A DNA stretch of 64,000 bases from Leptolyngbya sp. 'hensonii' (GTDB lineage: Bacteria > Cyanobacteriota > Cyanobacteriia > GCF-001939115), in NCBI RefSeq assembly GCF_001939115.1, contig NZ_MQTZ01000053.1, positions 1 to 64,000 of the forward strand, read 5' to 3'. The position numbers and the translations under genes were made by a program. Below are positions 12,414 through 46,094 of the stretch, one piece after another (position 1 is the first letter of the stretch; each line of letters opens with the position of its first letter). The notes beneath the pieces are model-generated. The model searched no databases, was not told the origin of the DNA, and saw only the letters and a list, made by a program, of their open reading frames with translations.

Positions 12414-12635
12414 TCGGGTTGATTACCATCATCCGTTCAACGTCGCTTAATAATCCATTTTCAAATATCTTGAGTTTCCCCACATTTAGTGGAGCTTATG
12501 GCATCGTTAGGGTCAGGGCTTCAGTAGAAGTGGGGAAATTTATTTTCCCAGGTTCGAATCAAAAAGGCAGAGGCGTTGTCTGCAACCCCTGTACAGGTAG
12601 GATGGGTCGCGAGCAAAATCTAAATGGGTGTAGGT

Positions 12636-36641: not shown

Positions 36642-36683
36642 GTGGCCGGTAGAGGGGTTGGATCCAACCCCTCTACCGGCCAC
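36642..36683. repeat. Perfect 42-bp palindrome between convergent genes
   Basis: The arms GTGGCCGGTAGAGGGGTTGG+A and its exact complement meet without a loop. It lies between the stops of the pentapeptide gene (36613) and the HLIP gene (36703, minus strand), so it can act as a bidirectional terminator, although T-runs are missing. A diverged copy of one arm (GTAGCCGATAGGGGAGTT, 36615-36632) sits just upstream. Confidence 0.9.
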
Positions 36684-45124: not shown

Positions 45125-45385
45125 ATGAGAGTTGCAGACATTCCCATGCATTTGATCCGCCGTCCGCTGATGCGTCAGAACGATCCGGCGAAGGTACAAG
45201 CTCTGATGGAGTCCATTCAGCAAGAGGGTTTACGGGAGCCGATTGACATCCTGGAAGTCGAGGGTCAGTACTATGGGTTTTCTGGCTGTCACCGGTTTGA
45301 AGCCTGCACCCGACTCGGCCATGAAACCATCCGCTGTCGGGTGAGACGAGCCCCAAAATCGGTGTTGAAAATGCATTTGGCGTAG
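45125..45385 (+). CDS. srxA: Sulfiredoxin
   Basis: The 86-residue enzyme repairs over-oxidised (sulfinic) 2-Cys peroxiredoxins with ATP. The catalytic motif FSGCHRFEA carries the active Cys. Other conserved blocks are IRRPLMRQNDPAKVQALMES, GLREPIDILEVEGQYYGF and CRVRRAPKSVLKMHLA. The last codons and stop form one arm of a 54-bp perfect palindrome. A 175-base gap separates it from futA. Confidence 0.92.
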   Translation: MRVADIPMHLIRRPLMRQNDPAKVQALMESIQQEGLREPIDILEVEGQYYGFSGCHRFEACTRLGHETIRCRVRRAPKSVLKMHLA

Positions 45386-45425
45386 TAGAGTCGTTGCATG
45401 CAACGACTCTACTACGCCAAATGCA
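45372..45425. repeat. Perfect 54-bp palindrome covering the srxA stop codon
   Basis: The left arm 45372-45398 (TGCATTTGGCGTAGTAGAGT...) is the exact reverse complement of the right arm 45399-45425, with no loop. The left arm includes the last srxA codons (CAT TTG GCG, stop TAG). As RNA it would form a 25-27 bp hairpin at the end of the message; no T-run follows. Confidence 0.95.
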
Positions 45426-45443: not shown

Positions 45444-46094
45444 ATGACCCATCACCTCTCCCCCACCGATCGTCTGTCCTCCCTGATGCACCAAGCCGGA
45501 ATTCCCAGCTTTGCTGCACTTGCTAGAACAGCCGGGGTCTCGGAATGGCAGGTGACCCAGCTCCGTCAGGGACGGATTCAACAAATGCGGGTCGATCGGC
45601 TCACCCGGCTGAGTCAGGCCCTGCAGATTTCTTTACCAGAACTACTGGACACCTTCAGTTCAACAGAAGCCCACCAACCAGATCCACAGCCAGATCCCCT
45701 GGAACAGTCTCTGGCCATGCTGCGGGAAGAATACCAGCGCCTGCAGAAACAACTGGAGGCGCAACAGCACACCCTCCTGGCCGAATTTCAGCAGGCCAGC
45801 CTGCAAACCCTAGAATCCTGGCTGATGCAGTGGCCCACTGCTGCCTATGCTGCCCAACAGAATCCCCAGGCCCCTGCCATCCGATTGCTACCCCTGGTCC
45901 GTCCGATCGAGCAGTTGCTGCAGCAGTGGGGGGTAGTCGCGATCGGGCCTGTAGGCAGTGAAGTCCCCTATGACCCCCAGTACCACCAGCTCATGGAAGG
46001 GACAGTCCAACCTGGAGCCAGGGTTCGGGTTCGTTACACGGGTTATTGCCAGGGAAAACGGTTGTTGTTTCGGGCCAAAGTCAGCCCCTTGTAG
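45444..46094 (+). CDS. HTH protein with C-terminal GrpE-like domain
   Basis: The 216-residue protein has an XRE-like helix-turn-helix in residues 15-70 (IPSFAALARTAGVSEWQVTQLRQGR) and a coiled coil at 85-120 (LAMLREEYQRLQKQLEAQQ). The last part resembles GrpE: IRLLPLVRPIEQLLQQWGV, VPYDPQYHQLMEGTV and a short beta-wing VRVRYTGYCQGKRLLFRAKV. GrpE is the nucleotide exchange factor for DnaK. A DNA-binding front on such a module suggests a sensor linking chaperone state to transcription; this is inference. Confidence 0.7.
   Translation: MTHHLSPTDRLSSLMHQAGIPSFAALARTAGVSEWQVTQLRQGRIQQMRVDRLTRLSQALQISLPELLDTFSSTEAHQPDPQPDPLEQSLAMLREEYQRLQKQLEAQQHTLLAEFQQASLQTLESWLMQWPTAAYAAQQNPQAPAIRLLPLVRPIEQLLQQWGVVAIGPVGSEVPYDPQYHQLMEGTVQPGARVRVRYTGYCQGKRLLFRAKVSPL

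Follow-up and report, generated by a model that had tools for sequence, protein, structure and literature searches.

The genomes of cyanobacteria reportedly harbor very small dispersed structured repeats, among them the small dispersed repeats (SDR) of Nostoc attributed to Elhai et al. 2008, to which the repeat analyzed in this work can be likened by description. The GTAG-tagged REP superfamily (Di Nocera et al. 2013, PMC3733652) comprises short dispersed palindromes of 20-40 bp, present also in cyanobacteria, which are positioned behind the stop codons of convergent or unidirectional genes, where the GTAG end often supplies the TAG stop. These elements carry at one end a GTAG tetranucleotide that takes no part in the pairing, they are expected to be associated with a RAYT (Y1_Tnp) gene, and some families lie within palindromes that follow a consensus (GTAG-15 dimers in Anabaena variabilis, GTAG-23 in T. 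roseum). Quasipalindrome correction and other template-switch mutations (PMC8794818, PMC3820800, PMC7202029) copy one arm, make or extend perfect inverted repeats and leave multi-base mirrored changes; the origin and upkeep of perfect hairpins have been proposed to result from template switching (PMC8794818), as has the spread of identity between the arms of inverted repeats (PMC3820800). Intrinsic terminators and 3'-stabilizing structures are GC-containing perfect hairpins placed directly behind the stop codon; cyanobacteria lack Rho, and most transcript ends of Synechococcus elongatus are not explained by canonical terminators (PMC13289151).

The feature analyzed here is situated at the 3' end of the sulfiredoxin gene srxA in the window, i.e. 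the whole 64-kb stretch of DNA under study (Table 1). In agreement with the preliminary description of this DNA, it is a perfect 54-bp palindrome, with arms (45372-45399 and 45398-45425) that are 100% complementary and have no spacer; the number of palindromes like this one expected by chance in 64 kb is ~4e-12. The same description regarded the palindrome as built from the end of srxA, which holds for the outer 13 bp on each side, but not for the inner 28 bp, which are a copy of a dispersed palindromic repeat and not srxA sequence. The srxA ORF, identified by a phmmer match to a solved sulfiredoxin structure (6ky4, E=1.3e-27; the Pfam ParB_N score was under the cut-off), reads ...VLKMHLA*, and the G of its TAG stop codon (45383-45385) is the first base of the repeat core. 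TGCATTTGGCGTA corresponds to the codons M(part)-H-L-A and the TA of the stop. The C-terminal codons and stop, said to form an entire arm, make up only its outermost part (45372-45385), while 45386-45398 is noncoding with respect to srxA. The possibility that a whole arm was copied from srxA was rejected, as the core is the repeat. Because the central 28 bp are a copy of that repeat, only the outer 13 bp per side require a local inverted duplication; for these, template switching, invoked originally for the complete second arm, is the best mechanism. Comparison with Rfam returned plant microRNA models alone (36 bits against a gathering score of 137, and 29 against 85), and this identity was discarded, as the scores are far under the gathering scores and such models answer any long hairpin. 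The plasmid records searched gave no match.

Table 1. Coordinates of the srxA palindrome, its parts, the adjacent genes and the other copies of the repeat in the window
Feature	Coordinates	Strand	Basis
Perfect 54-bp palindrome (whole feature)	45372..45425	.	Arm comparison and RNA fold
Left mirrored flank TGCATTTGGCGTA	45372..45384	+	MHLA-stop kept in relatives; exact 13-mer found elsewhere in the genome only as its own mirror
Core GTAGAGTCGTTGCATGCAACGACTCTAC, copy of the dispersed palindromic repeat	45385..45412	.	Genome, class and window pattern searches
Right mirrored flank TACGCCAAATGCA, srxA end inverted	45413..45425	.	13-bp perfect extension; absent in 78 relatives
srxA (sulfiredoxin, 86 aa)	45125..45385	+	ORF; phmmer to sulfiredoxin structures; 78 relatives
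HTH (HTH_26) protein gene	45444..46094	+	ORF, domain match, synteny with srxA in relatives
Second copy in the window, perfect 42-bp palindrome	36642..36683	.	Palindrome and pattern search
Degenerate core copy, 2 mismatches to the pattern, no mirrored flanks	12567..12594	.	Pattern search

The repeat pattern GTAGAGnnGTTnnnnnnAACnnCTCTAC yielded 22 forward matches in this genome (with at most 2 mismatches) vs. 1 for the reversed-pattern control, and 3 matches within the window (with at most 3 mismatches) vs. 0.02 expected. A stricter pattern was found in 25 of the 291 genomes of the (cyanobacterial) class, with up to 89 copies. The second copy in the window shares with the srxA copy the core ends GTAGAG...CTCTAC (core at 36649-36676) and is positioned between a pentapeptide-repeat-like gene and a small minus-strand gene, whose ends converge; its mirrored flanks span 7 bp, and they reach 10 bp when a tandem duplication of 5 bp (GTGGC) in the left arm is accommodated. 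The degenerate third copy adjoins a 21-nt imperfect inverted repeat (12475-12538).

Like the GTAG REPs, the 28-bp core is a dispersed palindrome of the appropriate size, located behind coding regions, to which it supplies TAG. However, GTAG pairs with CTAC in the strict copies instead of remaining unpaired, the mirrored flanks differ by copy instead of following a consensus, and there is no RAYT neighbor: none of the 18 Y1_Tnp loci found in five genomes has a copy of the repeat within ~1.5 kb. Because of the paired GTAG and the lack of a nearby Y1 transposase locus we call the repeat REP-like, rather than file it as a GTAG REP member. A RAYT was considered as the mobilizer and dropped, as no association with the repeat was found in these genomes. 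The open-license papers searched contained neither a mention of the core sequence nor a description of family-wide, copy-specific mirroring.

Such mirroring is a habit of the repeat. Both here and in four species of a different genus (g95), most strict copies possess copy-specific inverted flanks of 3-15 bp; in this genome, for instance, the symmetry of other copies continues past the core by 8, 7, 6, 5, 5, 4 and 4 bp, with a different sequence each time. The mean perfect extension is 5.5 bp here and 6.4 bp in the g95 genome G161, compared to 0.32 and 1.0 bp, respectively, for mis-paired controls, in which flanks from different copies were combined (0/20000 permutations reach the observed value in either genome). 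In G161 a perfect mirror of at least 4 bp was found in 24 of 30 copies (maximum 15 bp), and the other three g95 genomes (G242, G168, G216) agree with it. A gapped comparison in this genome gave a score of at least 5 in 8 of 31 copies vs. 2.4% for flanks paired across copies; the effect is stronger in g95 than in this genome. A longer conserved consensus that includes the flanks was considered and rejected, as each copy has flanks of its own and the 13-mer does not recur elsewhere in the genome. On the other hand, six f32 genomes (G096, G135, G177, G224, G244, G288) carry the core within a longer conserved context (AGACATCTCC...AAGAAT-core-AAGGGTT...ACGCAT), which may be a MITE-like unit, with unmirrored flanks. 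Thus, the mirror does not belong to the repeat itself but is acquired by it in certain lineages, and the mirroring process is not universal. The recurrence of mirrored flanks across copies suggests that long hairpins at the ends of genes are built by a process of DNA copying that recurs. Point mutation does not readily account for long perfect hairpins in such places. Within this family, related species provide dozens of natural examples of a palindromic core combined with a mirror of its own neighborhood, so that the template-switch origin proposed for hairpins becomes open to direct testing in bacteria. The single srxA locus would by itself be a curiosity; the interesting part is the family-wide copy-specific mirroring and the joint evolution of the arms.

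The history of the srxA copy was analyzed by comparison with 78 srxA relatives with flanks (the closest ~81% identical), as the preliminary description had recommended. The stop position is identical in 78/78 and MHLA is the usual ending. A palindrome at the stop codon was found in 0/78, and the few hairpins present in these loci are located farther downstream and are unrelated. With the same stop and no palindrome in the relatives, this lineage appears to have newly gained the mirrored 13 bp behind the core, the coding side apparently being the older one; TGCATTTGGCGTA would then be the template of the mirror and TACGCCAAATGCA the newly made copy. The gene behind the palindrome starts 18 bp downstream of it, and an HTH gene follows srxA also in 42 of the 78 relative loci. 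When the 28 bp of the core are deleted in silico, srxA runs in frame into the HTH gene without meeting a stop. This result bears on the idea that the core was inserted into the center of a pre-existing hairpin, e.g. a terminator, with the flanks as its arms, for which one could quote the REP families within palindromes mentioned above and the position of the copies at gene ends. Since core removal would fuse the two genes, although all 78 relatives stop at this position, such an insertion is unlikely at srxA; considering also that no relative has a hairpin at the srxA stop and that element-free sibling sites lack hairpin arms in the readable cases, we find this explanation hard to credit. The comparison also addresses the objection, raised at the outset, that the palindrome is an assembly or library artefact. 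Chimeric fold-back reads can yield perfect palindromes and are a possible source of this one; the mirror, however, ends after 27 bp and is followed by the normal downstream gene, syntenic in relatives, and the same mirrored design occurs in many independent genomes, which makes an artefact exceedingly improbable.

The changes of the flanks with time are revealed by ten G161 sites, which we compared with three other species of genus g95. At one site, with the element in 4/4 species, the flanks are ATCGTTT/AAACGA, ATCCTTT/AAAGGA, GGATCG/CGATCC and a 3-bp GAT/ATC; the gene-side flank is still recognizable and the far side follows it. At another site, GGAATCCGTTTT/AAAACGGATTCC corresponds to GGAATCGTTTTT/AAAAACGATTCC, and the core is changed on both arms too. 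The two arms change jointly at orthologous sites, in species too distant for dating single events. Some sibling species are devoid of the element and reveal no hairpin arms where the site is readable, the alignment of such fast-changing stretches being uncertain.

We think it likely that the palindrome is a REP-like 3'-end hairpin, the stem of which has been lengthened and corrected by fold-back (template-switch) DNA synthesis, with srxA serving as the template in this case. In this scenario srxA would first have received, at its 3' end, a palindromic repeat of 28 bp that is or once was mobile. Once DNA synthesis had passed through the end of srxA and the core, the nascent strand would fold back on the palindromic core, copy 13 nt of the srxA end and return to its template, so that a perfect mirror of the srxA end would be left behind the core. 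Fold-back synthesis would repeatedly extend and re-correct other copies as well, so that each would acquire its own mirrored flanks, and the mRNA would end up with a long perfect hairpin at its 3' end. The membership of the core in the repeat family, the copy-specific mirrored flanks, the 3'-end location and the joint changes of the arms are observed, whereas we infer this mechanism, the direction of copying and the role of the RNA; fold-back synthesis is the simplest account, as it explains why the flanks pair perfectly by Watson-Crick rules, differ in sequence between copies, vary in length and change on both arms together. A perfect reverse complement of the adjacent sequence, placed behind an inverted repeat, is what template switching produces, and it is found here over 13 bp at srxA and generally in the family, whereas the published template-switch mutations were described at single loci or RNA genes, and we came across no account of them as a regular trait of one dispersed repeat family.

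Alternatively, the mirror could be made at insertion, if the folded hairpin joined to a broken strand primed the copying of the flank, in which case an inverted target duplication would be a hallmark of transposition. The presence of mirrored flanks on most strict copies in two unrelated lineages, including copies with young-looking perfect cores, is in line with this scenario, as are the variable flank lengths expected of an aborted copying tract. However, orthologous occupied sites differ in their mirror between species while their arms still match, so turnover goes on after insertion, and the 0/18 Y1_Tnp loci with a nearby copy also speak against it; we regard an origin at insertion alone as unlikely. 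A non-systematic look at the flanks of copies revealed no direct target-site duplication. In a broader version, to which we give slightly more credence while still doubting it, the repeat would be a mobile element that, when it inserts or replicates, regularly reproduces the target flank in inverted form on its opposite side, turning each copy into the tip of a custom hairpin at a gene end; to our knowledge, an "inverted target duplication" is not known from any described bacterial element.

As RNA, the 54-mer is predicted to fold with -44.6 kcal/mol (z=-13.5), in keeping with the very stable 3' hairpin anticipated in the preliminary description. Like an intrinsic terminator, it is a stable GC-containing hairpin directly behind the stop codon, but, unlike one, it is built on a repeat and has no U-tract in the srxA sense, where GCAACCCC follows; the terminator scan reported terminator-like sites only on the minus strand. 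As a canonical U-tract is missing in the srxA sense, a terminator role for the srxA hairpin stays putative, while a putative role in marking or stabilizing the 3' end is plausible. That the long hairpin is retained, or at least tolerated, is probably explained by its marking or protection of transcript ends, perhaps for both strands, and the repeat is a candidate source of 3'-end structures for the Rho-less cyanobacteria.

Part of the mirrored-flank pattern could be mimicked if longer stems were favored by selection, and in its pure form this explanation would have the stem grow by stepwise substitutions, selected for a longer stable RNA stem, with no templated event. The stability of the stem and the location of the copies at gene 3' ends are compatible with it, and two-arm changes are what pairing selection yields. 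Nonetheless, the srxA flanks form thirteen perfect Watson-Crick pairs with zero G-U, the sequence of the left side is fixed by protein coding, and among the mismatches in co-directional copies, read in the transcribed sense, G-U pairs are not in excess over A-C (5 G-U, 8 A-C, 4 other; a small sample). RNA-level selection through G-U pairs was thus discarded as a candidate, within the limits of that sample; with no G-U bias, DNA-level copying fits better than RNA-level selection, and purely stepwise growth of the stem seems to us quite improbable.

The genomic location of copies was classified for this genome and g95, with genes called approximately by a codon-usage script. Of the 69 classified copies, 55 have convergent (29) or co-directional (26) neighbors and only 3 have divergent neighbors; the remainder are inside called ORFs or near a region without a gene call. 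The median distance behind the stop codon is ~15 nt, and several copies provide the stop codon themselves, through the TAG of their GTAG end. At L006 (G000:C17:115207-115234) and L205, a single 28-bp copy appears to provide the TAG stop to both convergent neighbors, one per end.

This genome also contains a related asymmetric subfamily (L012, L015, L101, L102, L107, L110, L111), with a sequence of about GAAGAGGCGTTGCAGGCAACRCCTGTACGGGG, a GTACGGGG tail and no mirrored flanks, which may represent the more conventional REP form with an unpaired end. In genome G083, three copies (L137, L143, L148) have flanks in common (ACCTGAACCACTTC... / GAAAGAATTACACCT...), so the core seems to travel there in a longer repeat. 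Finally, a Y1_Tnp-like gene at L116 (G000:C20:139080-142334) resides amid several copies of another palindromic repeat with the pattern TCTCTGGTTCCCAG-N7-CTGGGAACCAGGGA, which looks like a separate transposase-associated repeat family of this genome.
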